Under the pieces are notes generated by a model. The model made no database searches. It was not told the DNA's origin and was given only the letters and a program-made list of their open reading frames with translations. From Leeia aquatica (GTDB lineage: Bacteria > Pseudomonadota > Gammaproteobacteria > Burkholderiales > Leeiaceae): 64,000 nt of DNA. Position numbers and translations under genes: made by a program. Below are positions 43,956 through 50,027 of the stretch, piece after piece (the first letter of the stretch is position 1; every line of letters begins with the position of its first letter). Where the stretch lies: NCBI RefSeq assembly GCF_012641365.1, contig NZ_JABAIM010000001.1, positions 1,612,001 through 1,676,000 on the forward strand, read 5' to 3'.

Positions 43956-44609
43956 TCAGGTCAGCTCGTCGAGGGCCGCTGCCAGATGATCCTGCACCGC
44001 CCAATGCTCTACCTGCCAGCGCCCCTGATGCCAGCTCACCCAGTTGAACGCAGCATTGGGGATCTCCACCTGCCGCAGCGCTGAGAGCGGGTATGCGTGG
44101 GCATGTCGCCACAGCATGTCCAGCACACCGCCGTGGGTCACCACCACCAGAGTTTGCCCACGGTGCTGCATGGCCATGGCGTCGAACGCCTGTGTCACCC
44201 GGTCGTAAAAACGCTGGATGGACTCCCCTTGCGGAATCTCCCATTGCGGGTCTCGCGCCCGGTAGCGGGCATATAGCTCCGGCTGCTGCTCTGCCATCTC
44301 GGCGTAGGTATGCCCCTGGAAGATCCCAAAGTGCTGCTCGCGCAGTGCTGGGCTGAGCCTCTGCGCGCACGCCAGCCGGGCCAGCAAGGGCGCCGCCGTT
44401 TGCCGGGCACGCTGCAGGTCGCTGCAATACAGTGCATCCACCGCAACCGCCGGAAAGCCACGCGCCAGCGCCTCAGCCTGTTCCAAACCGGTGGCATTCA
44501 GCGGGATGTCGGTCTGTCCTTGCAGGCGGCGCGCCAGGTTCCAGTCGGTTTCACCATGGCGAATCAGGCACAGACGGGTGGCGTCCGCGGGAAGTGTCGA
44601 TAAGTTCAT
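43956..44609 (-). CDS. Histidine phosphatase (phosphoglycerate mutase-like)
   Basis: A 217-residue protein of the histidine phosphatase superfamily. The catalytic LCLIRHGETDWNLARRLQGQ lies near residue 14, and the second His is in VVVTHGGVLDMLWRH near residue 150. Such proteins include GpmB-like and alpha-ribazole phosphatases; substrate unknown. It lies upstream of dgt on the same strand, with 81 bp between them. Confidence 0.88.
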   Translation of the reverse strand: MNLSTLPADATRLCLIRHGETDWNLARRLQGQTDIPLNATGLEQAEALARGFPAVAVDALYCSDLQRARQTAAPLLARLACAQRLSPALREQHFGIFQGHTYAEMAEQQPELYARYRARDPQWEIPQGESIQRFYDRVTQAFDAMAMQHRGQTLVVVTHGGVLDMLWRHAHAYPLSALRQVEIPNAAFNWVSWHQGRWQVEHWAVQDHLAAALDELT

Positions 44610-44657
44610 GCTTACGATCATAGCGGCAAGCCCAGTCGCTGGGGAAGCCTCACGTCA

Positions 44658-44681
44658 TTTGTAAACAAATAAGTTTACAAA
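44658..44681. promoter_or_regulatory. Operator candidate upstream of the MFS-regulator operon
   Basis: A 9-bp perfect inverted repeat, TTTGTAAAC and GTTTACAAA, separated by AAATAA, in an AT-rich patch 49 bp before the MFS start. It is the natural candidate site for the regulator encoded as the second gene of the operon. It may also touch the divergent phosphatase promoter. Confidence 0.6.
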
Positions 44682-44729
44682 TAAAGACTGGGGGCGCTAA
44701 ACTGTTCTGTCTTCGCCGGAGCCTTAACC

Positions 44730-45941
44730 ATGTCCAATCGCCACCCCATGCTTGCCTTATTGATCCTGTGCGCCATTGCACTGATCAGTACGGTCGGCGC
44801 TTCCTTGCCCTACCCGATCCTGGCGCCGCTGTTTGTGGATACCGCACCAGACCGTTTCAATCATTTCCTCGGTCTGCCGCCCAAGTTGTTGCTGGGCATC
44901 ACTCTGGCGCTGAACCCGCTCGGCTGCCTGCTCGGCAGTATGGTACTGGGGCCGCTGGCCGACCGTTTTGGTCAGCGAAAGGTGCTGGCCTGGAGCCTGG
45001 GTCTGGCCGTGCTGCTGCACGCACTCACCGCGCTGGCCCTGCAGGCCCGCTTGTTGCCGCTGTTCATGCTGGGGCGCTTTGCAGTGGGTCTGGTGGAAGG
45101 CAATACGGCAATTGCCCGCGCCATCTCGGTGAGCATTCCCGGGCTGGACCGTAATCGTGGTTTGTCTCTGATCAACTCGGCGCTGTACGCGGGCTGGCTG
45201 GTAGGCCCCATGCTGGGCGGGGCCACCGTGGGCTGGGGCTACAGTGTGCCGTTCTGGATCGCCAGCGCCGCCGTGCTATGCTGCCTGATCGGCTGTTGGC
45301 TGGCACTGCCCGGCGACACCCCCTCCCATGCCAACGACCACACGCTGTGGCAGACCATTCGCCACCGCAATGTGCTGTCCTTGCTGCGGGACCCGGCCAT
45401 CCGCCAGCTGGCGTTGCTGCAGATGGGTGTCGCCATCGGCATCTCGGGTTTCTATGAGTTTTACCCACTGTGGCTGGTGGAGTATCACCGTTTTGACAGC
45501 CAGCAGATCTCCTGGGTTACTGCCGTGCTGTGCATTGTGATGACCGGCATCAGCAGCATTCCCCTGTACAAAGGCACAGAAGGTGCCTTGCCACAAGCCG
45601 GGCGCTATGCCCTGCTGCTGGCCGCAGCGATCGCCCTGCAGGCACTGTGGACATCGTGGGCAGGGATTGTCGTGATCGTATTGGTAGGCCTGCCCATCTC
45701 GCTCTACAACACCCGGATGCCCATTTACTGGTCAGAGCGTTTTGCCAGTCAGGGGCAAGGCAGCGTGATGGGCTTGCTGGCCAGCATTTTCTTCCTGTCG
45801 AACATGCTGATCGCCGTGATCGGCGGGGGGCTGACGCTGCTGGACACCCGCCTGGTGCTGCTGCTGGGTGCAGGATGCTGCGCATGGGGTGCCTGGGGCA
45901 TCTTGCGTCTTGCCCGGCGAACCCATTTGCAGGAGGCCTGA
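44730..45941 (+). CDS. MFS transporter
   Basis: A 403-residue major-facilitator protein with about twelve helices. The cytosolic loop between helices 2 and 3 has the MFS signature GPLADRFGQRKVLAWSLG near residue 74. Gene order with a cysteine-rich regulator 3 bp downstream suggests an inducible exporter of a toxic or redox-active compound, but the substrate is unknown. Confidence 0.88.
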   Translation: MSNRHPMLALLILCAIALISTVGASLPYPILAPLFVDTAPDRFNHFLGLPPKLLLGITLALNPLGCLLGSMVLGPLADRFGQRKVLAWSLGLAVLLHALTALALQARLLPLFMLGRFAVGLVEGNTAIARAISVSIPGLDRNRGLSLINSALYAGWLVGPMLGGATVGWGYSVPFWIASAAVLCCLIGCWLALPGDTPSHANDHTLWQTIRHRNVLSLLRDPAIRQLALLQMGVAIGISGFYEFYPLWLVEYHRFDSQQISWVTAVLCIVMTGISSIPLYKGTEGALPQAGRYALLLAAAIALQALWTSWAGIVVIVLVGLPISLYNTRMPIYWSERFASQGQGSVMGLLASIFFLSNMLIAVIGGGLTLLDTRLVLLLGAGCCAWGAWGILRLARRTHLQEA

Positions 45942-45944
45942 GCC

Positions 45945-46574
45945 ATGAGCAGTGCGGAACAGATACTCTATCTGCTGAAAACCCGAGGCGCACAAACGGC
46001 ACAGACACTGGCCGATGCGCTGGACCTGACCCCCATGGGCGCGCGCAAGCACCTGCTGGCGCTGGAAGCCAAAGGATTGCTGCAGTCCGAAGAGCGCGCT
46101 GAAGGCGTAGGTCGCCCAGGCCGCTACTGGATGCTGACCGACGCCGGGCACGCCCGCTTCCCCGACCGGCACAGCGACCTTACCCTGCAGCTGATTGATC
46201 AGGTGCGCAGCCTGTTCGGCGAGGCCGGGCTGGACCAGCTGATTGCCGCCCGCGAGCAGCAAGCCCGGCAGCACTATCAAGCGGCACTGGCCAGCCAGGC
46301 CGACCTGGCCAGCAAGGTCACCACGCTGGCGCGCCTGCGCAGTGAAGAGGGCTATATGGCGGAAGCACAGCGCGACGAGGACGGCCACTGGCTGCTGCTG
46401 GAAAACCATTGCCCGATCTGTGCTGCAGCACGTCAGTGCCAAGGTTTTTGCCGCGCGGAGCTGACCCTGTTCCAGCACAGCCTGGGACCGGCTTTCAAGG
46501 TCGAACGCAGCGAACACCTGCTGGCGGGCGCCCGCCGTTGCACTTATCGCATTCAGTGGCTGAAACCCACCTGA
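45945..46574 (+). CDS. COG2345/SufR-like HTH regulator with a putative Fe-S binding Cys cluster
   Basis: A 209-residue regulator. Residues 1-70 form a winged helix (ILYLLKTRGAQTAQTLADAL, then LTPMGARKHLLALEAKGLL). The C-terminal half has C156-x2-C159-x5-C165-x3-C169 in ENHCPICAAARQCQGFC, plus C199. Related COG2345/SufR proteins bind an iron-sulfur cluster and act as repressors. The gene follows the MFS gene by 3 bp, and an inverted repeat precedes the operon, so autorepression is inferred. Confidence 0.82.
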   Translation: MSSAEQILYLLKTRGAQTAQTLADALDLTPMGARKHLLALEAKGLLQSEERAEGVGRPGRYWMLTDAGHARFPDRHSDLTLQLIDQVRSLFGEAGLDQLIAAREQQARQHYQAALASQADLASKVTTLARLRSEEGYMAEAQRDEDGHWLLLENHCPICAAARQCQGFCRAELTLFQHSLGPAFKVERSEHLLAGARRCTYRIQWLKPT

Positions 46575-46589
46575 GCCCAGACGCGCCCA

Positions 46590-47708
46590 TCAGCCGATCA
46601 GGCGTACCGGCAGCAGCGGAAAACCATTGAAACGGCTGGCGCAGGCATTGCTGTAGGCGCCCGCGGTATGTACCCACAGACGGTCCCCTTCCTGCAGCGT
46701 CACAGGCAATGGCTGAGCCTCAGCGCAGATGTCCATCGAGTCACAGGTGGGGCCCGCCATGGTCCATGCTGCGCGCGGCCCTTCCCGTGAGGCGTCGATG
46801 GCGTAGCTAAAGCCGGTGATCGACTCCAGCAGGCCATTGAACACCCCGACATCCAGATACACCCAACGCTGCCCGCCGCGCCGGGTGGTGCCGATCACCT
46901 GACACAGCAATCCCCCGGCTTCCGCCACCAGATAGCGTCCAGGTTCAGCCATGATGCGTACCGAGGCAGGCATGCCCTGCAAGGCGTCATGAATCGCCTG
47001 CCCCAAGGTCTCGATGCTGGGGACCACACTGTCGTATTCTGCCGGGAAACCGCCACCGAGGTTAAGCAGCCGCGGCGTCAGGCCTCGCTCCAGCATACGC
47101 TGGAACCACTGCTTGGCGGCAGCAATACCGGACAGCCAGTTCTCCACTCGGCAACATTGTGACCCGGCATGAAAAGTAATGCCCGCCAGATCGGCGCCAC
47201 AGGCCAGCGCCGCCTGCAACACCGCCTCGGCCTCCACCTCACCTGCGCCAAACTTGCCGGACAGCGCCACTTGCGAGCCCTGATTGTCGGTATGCAACCG
47301 CAAATAGAACGAGGCTTGCGGGTAGAGGGCATGCACCTTGTGCAATTCCTCGACACAGTCCACCACATACCATTGCACCCCGGCGACCACCGCCTGGGCG
47401 ATGGCCTCGCGGGACTTGACCGGGTTGCTGTAATACAGCTCGGCGGCAGGCACCCCCAGCTCCAGCATCAATTTCAATTCATCCGGCGAAGCAATCTCAA
47501 AACCGGCTCCCGCCTCATGCAGGCACTGCAGCACCTGCGGGTCTGGATTGCATTTCACCGCAAAGTGCGGGTACACCGCAGGCAGGGCGCGACGAAAGCG
47601 CAGCACCCGGTCGCGCAATACCGCGCGATCCATCCACAGTTGTGGACCGGTATAGGGTGCGGCCAGCAACTGGGCGCGCAAGTCCGCGTTGAATAAGGGG
47701 CGGCTCAT
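46590..47708 (-). CDS. PLP-dependent ornithine/lysine-type decarboxylase (fold III)
   Basis: A 372-residue alanine-racemase-fold decarboxylase. The PLP lysine is K52 in HFAVKCNPD, H180 in ITFHAGSQ stacks on PLP, GGGFPAEYD is near residue 218, and the catalytic C322-D323 lie in AGPTCDSMDI. It is close in size to bacterial and eukaryotic ornithine decarboxylases. Ornithine to putrescine is most likely; lysine to cadaverine cannot be excluded. GAGGAA precedes the ATG. It is second in an operon, 10 bp after an amine oxidoreductase. Confidence 0.9.
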   Translation of the reverse strand: MSRPLFNADLRAQLLAAPYTGPQLWMDRAVLRDRVLRFRRALPAVYPHFAVKCNPDPQVLQCLHEAGAGFEIASPDELKLMLELGVPAAELYYSNPVKSREAIAQAVVAGVQWYVVDCVEELHKVHALYPQASFYLRLHTDNQGSQVALSGKFGAGEVEAEAVLQAALACGADLAGITFHAGSQCCRVENWLSGIAAAKQWFQRMLERGLTPRLLNLGGGFPAEYDSVVPSIETLGQAIHDALQGMPASVRIMAEPGRYLVAEAGGLLCQVIGTTRRGGQRWVYLDVGVFNGLLESITGFSYAIDASREGPRAAWTMAGPTCDSMDICAEAQPLPVTLQEGDRLWVHTAGAYSNACASRFNGFPLLPVRLIG

Positions 47709-47718
47709 GCTGTATTCC

Positions 47719-49008
47719 TCACAGATAATCACGAAGGCGATACCAGGCCATGCCCGCAGCCTGCAGCGGCACCCGCAGCCAGTCGCCGCCGGGGAAAGCC
47801 GGGTTGGGCAGCGCGCGGAACAGGTTCAGTAGTTGCTCATCACCCAGGATGGCCGATGCCAGCACCCTGCCTGCCACGCGGGTCGGAATCAAGCCGTGAC
47901 CGGAGAAGCCTTGTGCCCAGTACAGATCCTGCTCCCCCCCAAAATCCGGGGTGCGGTGCACGGTAATGTCGATATGCCCGCCCCAGCAGTGGCTGATCGC
48001 CACATCACGCAGTTGCGGGAATACCCGCAGCATGTCCGCCCGCATCCGCTCTGCCAGATTGGCCGGGGTGCGCCCGGAATAGGTACACTTGCCGCCAAAC
48101 AACAGGCGTCGATCCGCGGACAGCCGGAAGTAATCGAGTACAAACTGGTTATCGGACACCGCATGGTTTTGCGGCAGGATCTCGCGCGCCAGTACTTCCG
48201 GCAACGGCTCGGTGGCGATCATATAGGTGCCGACCGGTAATACCCGCGCTGACAGGTGCGGGGCCAGCCGGTCCAGATAGGCATTGCAGGCCAGCACCAG
48301 CTTGCGACAGCGCAGTGTGGCCTGCTCAGTACGTACCCGGTAGCCATCACCTTCGCGTTGGTAGTCCAGCACCCGGCTTTGCTCATGCAGGGTCACCCCA
48401 GCCGCCTCACAGACGTCAGCCAGCCCCAGCGCATACTTCAAGGGATGCAGATGACCGCCTTCGCTGTCGAGCAGCCCGGCCACATAGCGCGGCGAGCCCA
48501 CATACTCCGGTAGCTCGGCTTGCGGGATGAACTGCAGGTGCGGGTAATCCCAGTGGCGGGCGGCCTCTTCCTGCCAGTCGGTCAGGATCTTGATCCGGCG
48601 GGGCATGACTGCGGTCCAGACATGGCCGCTGGCCAGCTCACAGTCGATCTGGTGACGCTGGATACGCTGGCGGATATCTGCTGCGGCCGCTCTCACCAGT
48701 TGCCAGATGGTTTTGGCCCGCTGCGTACCGAGCGCGGCCTCAAACGGCGGCATGTCACAGGAAAAACCAAGGATGAGCTGGCCCCCATTGCGCCCGGAGG
48801 CCGCCCATGCCACCCGGCTGGCCTCCAGCACCCGTACGGACAATCCGGCCTCGGCCAGCTCGAGGGCGGTATACAAACCGGTGAAACCCGCGCCGACCAC
48901 ACAGACATCCACATCCGCGTCGTCCTGCAAGGGCGGCCGCGATCGCTGCCGATCCAGGCTAGACGCGGCGTACCAGCTGTCCGGATACTGCGCTGAGGAC
49001 TCAAACAT
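47719..49008 (-). CDS. FAD-dependent amine oxidoreductase, PuuB/OrdL-like
   Basis: A 429-residue DAO-fold flavoenzyme. The dinucleotide motif VCVVGAGFTGLYTALELAEAG begins near residue 35, and AWAASGRNGGQLILG follows, as in gamma-glutamylputrescine oxidases. The N-terminal SSAQYPDSWYAAS is typical of PuuB/OrdL. GGAGG lies at good spacing before the ATG at 49008. Paired with a decarboxylase, it suggests polyamine turnover, but no puuA glutamylation gene is visible, so the true substrate is open. Confidence 0.85.
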   Translation of the reverse strand: MFESSAQYPDSWYAASSLDRQRSRPPLQDDADVDVCVVGAGFTGLYTALELAEAGLSVRVLEASRVAWAASGRNGGQLILGFSCDMPPFEAALGTQRAKTIWQLVRAAAADIRQRIQRHQIDCELASGHVWTAVMPRRIKILTDWQEEAARHWDYPHLQFIPQAELPEYVGSPRYVAGLLDSEGGHLHPLKYALGLADVCEAAGVTLHEQSRVLDYQREGDGYRVRTEQATLRCRKLVLACNAYLDRLAPHLSARVLPVGTYMIATEPLPEVLAREILPQNHAVSDNQFVLDYFRLSADRRLLFGGKCTYSGRTPANLAERMRADMLRVFPQLRDVAISHCWGGHIDITVHRTPDFGGEQDLYWAQGFSGHGLIPTRVAGRVLASAILGDEQLLNLFRALPNPAFPGGDWLRVPLQAAGMAWYRLRDYL

Positions 49009-49064
49009 CAGGCCGACCTCCACTGAAGCGGCAGATGCCGCACGTGCAGGGTAACGCAGACAAC

Positions 49065-49098
49065 AAAAAAGCCGCAACGGCATCCCGTGCGGCTTTTT
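49065..49098 (-). terminator. Intrinsic terminator between leader frame and polyamine operon
   Basis: On the minus strand GCCGC-ACGG pairs with CCGT-T-GCGGC around a GATG loop, flanked by an A-tract and followed by six T. It lies 16 bp after the leader stop codon and 56 bp before the oxidoreductase start. That leaves little room for another promoter, so readthrough or relief of termination is expected. Confidence 0.88.
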
Positions 49099-49114
49099 AC
49101 CGGCATGCGCCGAT

Positions 49115-49147
49115 TTATCGCTTGAAGATAAACAGAGCCCAGCCCAT
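49115..49147 (-). CDS. Putative 10-residue leader peptide upstream of the polyamine operon
   Basis: Ten codons, MGWALFIFKR, then TAA. A very strong AAAGGAG sits six bases before the ATG. A small stem (CGGC-GCAT-GCCG, 49101-49112) follows the stop and runs into the intrinsic terminator. The hydrophobic aromatic core ending in Lys-Arg recalls ribosome-arrest leaders such as those of polyamine and tryptophanase genes. It is too short to judge by codon use; the evidence is the ribosome-binding site and the arrangement. A stand-alone small protein is the alternative. Confidence 0.55.
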   Translation of the reverse strand: MGWALFIFKR

Positions 49148-49306
49148 GATTTGCTCCTTTGTTTCTGGCATCACGTCCTTGTGGGACGATTAGCTGTACG
49201 CGGGCGGTTGCAACCCTTGCCTTGCTTGACGACAACCACCGGCCACGGACGATACAGCCCAACTTGCCCGTTCCGGCCCATCCCCTCCCTTGAGGGCATG
49301 CTTTGA

Positions 49307-49329
49307 TTACCGAGTAAGGTAACGCCTTA
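49307..49329. promoter_or_regulatory. Overlapping palindromes in the divergent region 49148-49460
   Basis: TTACC-GAGTAA-GGTAA (49307-49322) overlaps TAAGG-TAACG-CCTTA (49315-49329), in AT-rich DNA beside TAATATT. This is the most promoter-like part of the 313-bp gap between the leader frame and the AtaL-like gene. A further CCCTC/GAGGG stem is at 49283-49296. No gene is seen in the rest of the gap. Confidence 0.4.
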
Positions 49330-49460
49330 ATATTACACGATTATTGCATCGCAGCAAAGCACTTTATAGACTAACCACTTTTGTCTGCCGACCGTCAGCA
49401 TGGCCAAACCCGCACCGGATCAGGCAAACTGACAAGAGACTCGCCCACAGGACACCCTGC

Positions 49461-49952
49461 ATGCATTTTGAGCATCTGATCGAAATCAATGACCGCGACA
49501 ACTCCCTCTCGGTCCAGCTGACACACGCCCAGTTATGGGCCGGTCTGGTCCGCCGCGCAACCGACCCGCAGCATTTCATGCCACAGCTGGATGCGGCCCA
49601 CATCCTGTCACGCAGCGAGCAGGGCCTGCGCCGCGAACTGCACTTTGGCAGCCTGGTGGTGCGTGATGAAGTCCGCTTTGAGTCCCGGCAAGCCGTGCAT
49701 TACCTGACCGAGGCCAGCGAACAGCACGGCGGAGGCAGCCTCACCATGCGCATCGAGAGCCCGGATGGGGAGAGCCTGTTCGTCCGCTTCACCTACGACA
49801 CCCCGCTACCGGACGACAGCGGCGATTCTGGCGAGGCGGTCAAAGTGGCCAGCTATGTCAAAGCCGCCTACCGTGAGGCGGATATCGACACCATCCGGCT
49901 GATCCGCGAGCTGGTGGAGGACCAGAAGCTGGAATCCGGTGATCTGCACTGA
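49461..49952 (+). CDS. AtaL-like SRPBCC protein (DUF1857)
   Basis: A 163-residue protein with the START/Bet v1-like fold. It begins MHFEHLIEINDRDNSLSVQLT with QLWAGLVRRATDPQHFMPQLD, typical of the DUF1857/AtaL-like family, which bind small hydrophobic ligands or act as polyketide/lipid enzymes. The C-terminal helix AVKVASYVKAAYREADIDTIRLIREL closes the cavity. AGGAC lies upstream. Ligand unknown. Confidence 0.8.
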   Translation: MHFEHLIEINDRDNSLSVQLTHAQLWAGLVRRATDPQHFMPQLDAAHILSRSEQGLRRELHFGSLVVRDEVRFESRQAVHYLTEASEQHGGGSLTMRIESPDGESLFVRFTYDTPLPDDSGDSGEAVKVASYVKAAYREADIDTIRLIRELVEDQKLESGDLH

Positions 49953-49967
49953 ACATGCGCCACATGA

Positions 49968-49989
49968 ATATAGAACAATTGTTCTATAT
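49968..49989. promoter_or_regulatory. Perfect 22-bp palindrome before the YcaQ-type gene
   Basis: ATATAGAAC and GTTCTATAT are exact inverted repeats around AATT, giving a core GAAC-N4-GTTC. It lies 38 bp before the start codon, overlapping the likely promoter, so it is a strong operator candidate. MarR- or TetR-type regulators and non-classical LexA proteins bind such sites. Confidence 0.65.
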
Positions 49990-50027
49990 GTGCTAGATTA
50001 AAGGCCCCCCATTCCTTGGCCCCTCCC

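Follow-up and report, generated by a model that had tools for sequence, protein, structure and literature searches.

A structured RNA joined to a ten-codon reading frame in Leeia and other Burkholderiales

Introduction

Ibs and TisB are chromosomal type I toxins, tiny hydrophobic products with a structured leader. SpeFL and TnaC are encoded by short frames that have a strong Shine-Dalgarno (SD) sequence and a possible terminator behind them, and they control the gene immediately downstream. Dual-function small RNAs, which also encode a small protein, include SgrS/SgrT, RNAIII/delta-haemolysin, SR1/SR1P and PhrS (PMC5521070). In cyanobacteria, the Downstream-peptide motif, or yfr6 (RF01704), is a structured 5′ UTR RNA that precedes a conserved short frame; the yfr6 transcript is about 250 nt long, and its frame, the function of which is unknown, carries synonymous changes (PMC2864571).

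The unit described here resembles Downstream-peptide/yfr6 in its structured 5′ RNA and its conserved short frame with synonymous changes, but it belongs to a different phylum and its peptide always has 10 residues, as against 17-100 aa. With the dual-function small RNAs it shares the arrangement of a small RNA, free-standing and terminated, that doubles as the message for a small protein, and it differs from them in the 10-aa peptide, the large covarying fold and the lack of an Rfam match. The short frame, strong SD and possible terminator recall SpeFL and TnaC; in this unit, by contrast, conservation does not extend to any downstream gene, and a large folded domain lies upstream of the frame. 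Compared with Ibs and TisB, its product is shorter, there is a single copy per genome and the leader covaries. We judge the unit to be a family of RNA and peptide that is new in itself but arranged along known lines, novelty being measured against the curated Rfam families.

Results

Anatomy of the unit

The unit lies on the minus strand of the window, the whole 64,000-nt stretch of Leeia aquatica DNA that was analysed. A first-pass annotation had described an SD, a MGWALFIFKR frame, a small stem, a terminator and a 56-bp spacing to the next gene, all of which are present on the minus strand. It missed the larger part of the unit, a folded RNA at 49323-49174 upstream of the SD. We assigned the following features.

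49330..49357, minus strand: putative promoter, TTGCTG (49357-49352), 16 bp, TAATAT (49335-49330)
49306..49323, minus strand: hairpin P0, GUUACC/GGUAAU, where the transcript is presumed to begin
49279..49300, minus strand: helix P1, 9 columns, preceded by an invariant AAG (49303-49301)
49241..49278, minus strand: helix P2, GGCC (49278-49275) paired with GGCC (49244-49241)
49274-49272, minus strand: GGA bulge of P2, invariant, as is GGCC
49271-49266/49250-49245, minus strand: variable helix of P2, with two-sided changes
49193..49240, minus strand: helix P3 including its tail, predicted pairing of GGUGGUUG (49240-49233) with CAACCGCC (49210-49203)
49221-49211, minus strand: loop of P3, GGCAAGGGUUG, invariant
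49202-49193, minus strand: tail after P3, CGCGUACAGC, near-invariant
49174..49188, minus strand: hairpin P4, CGUCC CACAA GGACG
49154..49160, minus strand: Shine-Dalgarno AAAGGAG, AAAGGAGC invariant
49115..49147, minus strand: 10-codon frame MGWALFIFKR, ATG...TAA
49101..49112, minus strand: small stem CGGCGCATGCCG, folded, between the stop codon and the terminator
49065..49098, minus strand: intrinsic terminator AAAAAGCCGCACGGGATGCCGTTGCGGCTTTTTT, AAAAAGCCGCA...TGCGGCTTTTTT, with six T

The members found in other genomes have the same layout: a −10 box, P0, a folded core of ~110 nt, P4, the SD, the 10-codon frame and a terminator. The promoter region TGTAATAT is unchanged across the 3 Leeia genomes, and most non-Leeia members have an A/T-rich, −10-like box at the equivalent position. 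A P0 hairpin is predicted at the equivalent place in 14/14 members with differing sequences, a count that is partly circular as the stems were chosen by folding, and all members likewise have a predicted P4 hairpin there, again with differing sequences. Most have an extra stem between stop codon and terminator, different in sequence. A terminator follows the frame in 14/14 members and its sequence also differs; that of the window is nearly symmetrical and could work on both strands. In most members the SD AAAGGAGC (49154-49160) can pair with the terminator end GCUUUUUU (49065-49075), G001 being without this pairing, which would couple exposure of the SD to formation of the terminator.

Distribution of the unit among genomes

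We found the unit in 14/399 genomes sampled from the order, in 3 families and 5 genera and always as a single copy per genome. The genus of the window, which falls in Leeiaceae and not in Chromobacteriaceae, is represented by 3 genomes in the set, including Leeia oryzae DSM 17879, and both Leeia relatives keep the SD and frame (MAWALFIFRK, MGWALFIFKR) together with a long upstream block. A covariance model built from this upstream RNA block (R1) finds the core in two further families at E-values of 1e-12 to 1e-14. A second covariance model (R2) yielded the 14/399 genomes of the order, with matches in 8/10 and 4/5 genomes of the two other families (1 of the 4 spurious), and across 369 genomes of the class it returned no member besides the window's own. 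One R2 match, in G158 (E 9.5e-4), was dropped; it has no such peptide frame and resembles coding sequence.

The covariance model and an SD-peptide pattern, run separately, place the RNA core and the peptide together in 14/14 cases. The SD-peptide pattern, which holds no RNA-core content, matches exactly the same 14/399 genomes, and its reversed control gives 0 matches; as the pattern was written after the members had been seen, what counts is that it gave no extra matches. RNA and peptide form one unit. Among the one-mismatch peptide-like matches in the order, the one that was inspected (L011) sits within a longer coding frame and was rejected. A scan of genome contigs for an SD followed by M[GA]Wx[LF]FxF, which required Phe at codon 6 and so missed Tyr forms, gave 17 matches, of which L. 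oryzae alone was recognised as a member; the three others inspected, in Rossellomorea, Bacillus and Pseudomonas, map within ordinary coding genes or next to them. Many of the 17 matches are short frames. We rejected a mobile or viral origin on the grounds that the exact core matched no viral contig and no plasmid and that there is one copy per genome.

Against the curated families of Rfam 15, the best match in the window was RcsR1 at 23.8 bits versus a cut-off of 60, driven by the terminator, and matches of five other members were all below cut-off; a cmscan with RF01704 at permissive E-values had no match in the window region or in those five. With six members lacking an above-cut-off match, a known RNA family was rejected, and the first-pass description of the unit as undescribed holds to that extent.

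Fold of the RNA

P1 carries two-sided changes in 6/9 pairs, with 97.4% of cells paired. For P1 and P2 together, 98% of cells are paired and 10 pairs show two-sided changes; their covariation score was matched by 0/500 shuffles, and controls with a slid partner reached ≤56% paired. These numbers overstate independence, as relatedness persists through the shuffling and a single genus contributes half of the members; the agreement between three families is a stronger point than the covariation statistics. P3, its loop and its tail are identical in the 14 members save for 1 tail base in 1 member; such invariance leaves no covariation to read, and the P3 pairing is a prediction. In G278 (L063) the P2 loop is roughly 30 nt longer while core and peptide are retained, so the loop tolerates a change of length.

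Ensemble predictions for the 14 members show an SD that is largely unpaired, and no anti-SD conserved among them. Sequestration of the SD was rejected for want of a conserved partner, and a simple translational on/off switch is thus not visible. If the RNA is a switch, these folding predictions suggest that its probable means would be stability, the binding of a factor or tertiary structure and not a simple SD hairpin.

The ten-residue peptide

The frame has exactly 10 codons in 14/14 members, with the consensus M[GA]W-[ALI]-[LIV]-[YF]-[LI]-F-[KR]-[KR]. Peptides of the other families are MGWLIYLFRR, MGWLLYLFRR, MGWLVYLFRR, MAWLIYLFRR, MGWILYLFKR and MGWILYLFRR; the peptide is hydrophobic with a basic C-terminal end. 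Pairwise comparison of the members showed codon changes that are mainly synonymous or conservative. Between the congeners G000 and G002 there are 4 nt differences and 0 residue changes (P=0.001), between G077 and G111 there are 10 nt differences and 2 residue changes (P=0.001), several further pairs have P<0.06 and a few are uninformative. Conservation of the peptide with synonymous changes, which the first-pass annotation had named as a check on its proposal, is observed, SD and frame recurring in 14/399 genomes, and by these codon comparisons the frame is under selection as a peptide. No Pfam model covers the peptide, and four of the peptide strings had no match in open-access papers.

Relation to the neighbouring genes

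Two genes follow the unit on the same strand in the window.

47719..49008, minus strand: FAD-dependent (DAO-type) oxidoreductase, PF01266, a neighbour in this genome only and outside the unit
46590..47714, minus strand: lysine/ornithine-decarboxylase-like gene, closest solved structures being lysine/ornithine decarboxylases; outside the unit

The terminator is separated from the oxidoreductase ATG (49008) by 56 bp (49064-49009). A consensus promoter scan found none in these 56 bp and none anywhere in 48000-50000, and so carries little weight. The first-pass annotation had read this arrangement as a possible arrest-peptide attenuator of a polyamine operon. Its name for the neighbours is fair, given that the decarboxylase resembles lysine/ornithine decarboxylases, but a conserved role as a leader of these genes is contradicted: orthologues are unlinked, other downstream genes differ or converge, and L. 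oryzae has a phosphatase instead. What survives of that interpretation is the selected peptide, the terminator in 14/14 members and the absence of an Rfam match.

The first sign of independence from the oxidoreductase came from the two Leeia relatives: downstream of the unit, one has a histidine phosphatase gene, and the other has a different gene in convergent orientation. The next downstream gene lies on the opposite strand in 10/13 classifiable members, and the convergent genes include those for RND pump, AtaL-like, thioredoxin-like, CorA-like and SerA-like proteins (sequence readings, not all profile-tested). The 3 same-strand cases have 3 different genes, an oxidoreductase, a phosphatase and a ring-hydroxylating dioxygenase-like gene. 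Oxidoreductase orthologues, in 7 genomes and 61-67% identical, are on other contigs or far from the element; that of G218 is 13 kb away and upstream of it. The decarboxylase was not found in several element-bearing genomes and is unlinked where present.

In L. oryzae the AtaL-like gene is followed by the element, then by the phosphatase and the dNTPase-like gene. The same flanking genes enclose a 4.4-kb block in the window (44000-49000, compared with L054 5300-7600), so that the phosphatase directly 3′ of the element in L. oryzae is found 4.4 kb further on. This block consists of the oxidoreductase, the decarboxylase and two genes on the other strand, for a SufR-like regulator and an MFS transporter. 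The oxidoreductase-decarboxylase block is probably a later arrival in the window species. Whether it was inserted in the window or, less simply, lost in the relatives, the element is independent of it. In this one species transcription could still run on into the oxidoreductase; judged by the compared loci, such read-through cannot account for the conservation of the peptide.

Discussion

Comparison of the members' sequences carries four points: the P1/P2 fold, selection on the peptide, the linkage of RNA and peptide, and independence from the neighbours. Our confidence in the anatomy and in the independence from neighbouring genes is high. As to function, the unit is probably a free-standing tiny gene in which a folded leader regulates, or acts together with, a peptide of ten residues. 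Transcription would start from its own putative promoter (−10 box 49335-49330) and give a transcript of about 265-340 nt with a 5′ folded domain of P0, P1, P2, P3 and P4. The ten codons in the 3′ part would be translated, and the transcript would terminate at 49065. The RNA domain would be a cis-acting receptor or structural control for making or stabilising the small mRNA, and the effector a short hydrophobic, C-terminally basic peptide. Our guess is that the peptide probably acts at the membrane, or on a protein or ribosome partner; few precedents are known to us for trans action by a peptide of this size.

Cis control of the peptide is our preferred role for the RNA, by a tentative choice that falls somewhat short of even confidence. 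The conserved multi-helix fold, its covariation and the invariant junction and loop bases are those of a riboswitch-like RNA. It is conceivable, if on balance doubtful, that the unit represents an undescribed class of receptor RNA that regulates nothing but a 10-residue peptide, so that sensor and micropeptide would make up one self-contained gene. Less probable than cis control is a dual-function small RNA, in which the folded RNA would act in trans by base pairing or protein titration and the peptide would be a second product. The apparent free-standing small terminated transcript, with a selected frame in every member, has the form of such RNAs, and the strongly invariant GGCAAGGGUUG and CGCGUACAGC and the invariant core would suit an RNA acting in trans too, but the fold is more elaborate than is typical of pairing small RNAs and, as in receptor RNAs, its invariant bases fall both within helices and in the stretches between them. 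The hydrophobic peptide with its basic end, the structured leader and the unit's own terminator also bring to mind a type I toxin-like gene, with translation restrained by the 5′ leader and an antisense RNA. We think this improbable, as there is one copy per genome and antisense control does not require covarying helices; to our knowledge, type I toxins are all longer than ten residues.

Two further readings place the function in translation of the frame itself. In one, a small molecule would cause ribosomes to stall on the ten codons, which would alter the fate of the RNA without controlling a downstream gene; the fixed 10-codon length and the conservation of W, F and the basic end ahead of the stop are consistent with this, but there is no conserved downstream gene to regulate, and the stalling peptides known to us control genes in cis. 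We give it little credence. The other is the attenuator of the first-pass annotation, an arrest peptide deciding read-through into the oxidoreductase and decarboxylase. It draws on the oxidoreductase start 56 bp past the terminator without an obvious promoter and on the likeness of the decarboxylase to lysine/ornithine decarboxylases, both in this one genome. Elsewhere the oxidoreductase lies apart from the element, and what stands downstream is a different or a convergent gene, the phosphatase in the case of L. oryzae. As a conserved role, it is very improbable. SpeFL- and TnaC-type leaders are defined by a frame upstream of the gene that it regulates and by linkage to genes of the pathway that they sense. 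The unit lacks a conserved downstream gene (10/13 classifiable ones are convergent) and the oxidoreductase and decarboxylase are unlinked elsewhere, so we do not place the unit among them.

A product of exactly 10 residues, always tied to one elaborate RNA fold in three families, is near the lower size limit for a conserved genetic product. The unit would escape ordinary gene finding and is not represented by an Rfam model; with the covariance model and the peptide motif it can be detected elsewhere. Its small size puts every base and residue within reach of testing, which offers a direct route to the function of an RNA and its 10-residue peptide. The case is also a caution against calling an attenuator from a short frame, a terminator and an operon close by; in this instance the operon is adjacent in a single species.

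Neighbours shared by some members

The AtaL-like gene (PF08982; 49464-49952 in the window) is near the element and divergent from it in Leeia, and it is convergent or nearby in several genomes of the second family, f21 (L054, L055, L058, L060, L062 and L063, including Leeia), which suggests an ancestral neighbourhood. In most f21 genomes an RhlE-like DEAD-box RNA helicase gene adjoins the element divergently (L056, L057, L059, L060), and a cold-shock-domain protein is encoded near it in G022 and G248. These helicase and cold-shock neighbours, not common to the other families, make a link to cold or RNA structure possible. The cyanobacterial Downstream-peptide RNA is linked to nitrogen. In genus g32 (L064, L065) the element lies ~150-175 bp after a glnB/PII gene on the same strand, a placement not common to the other members.
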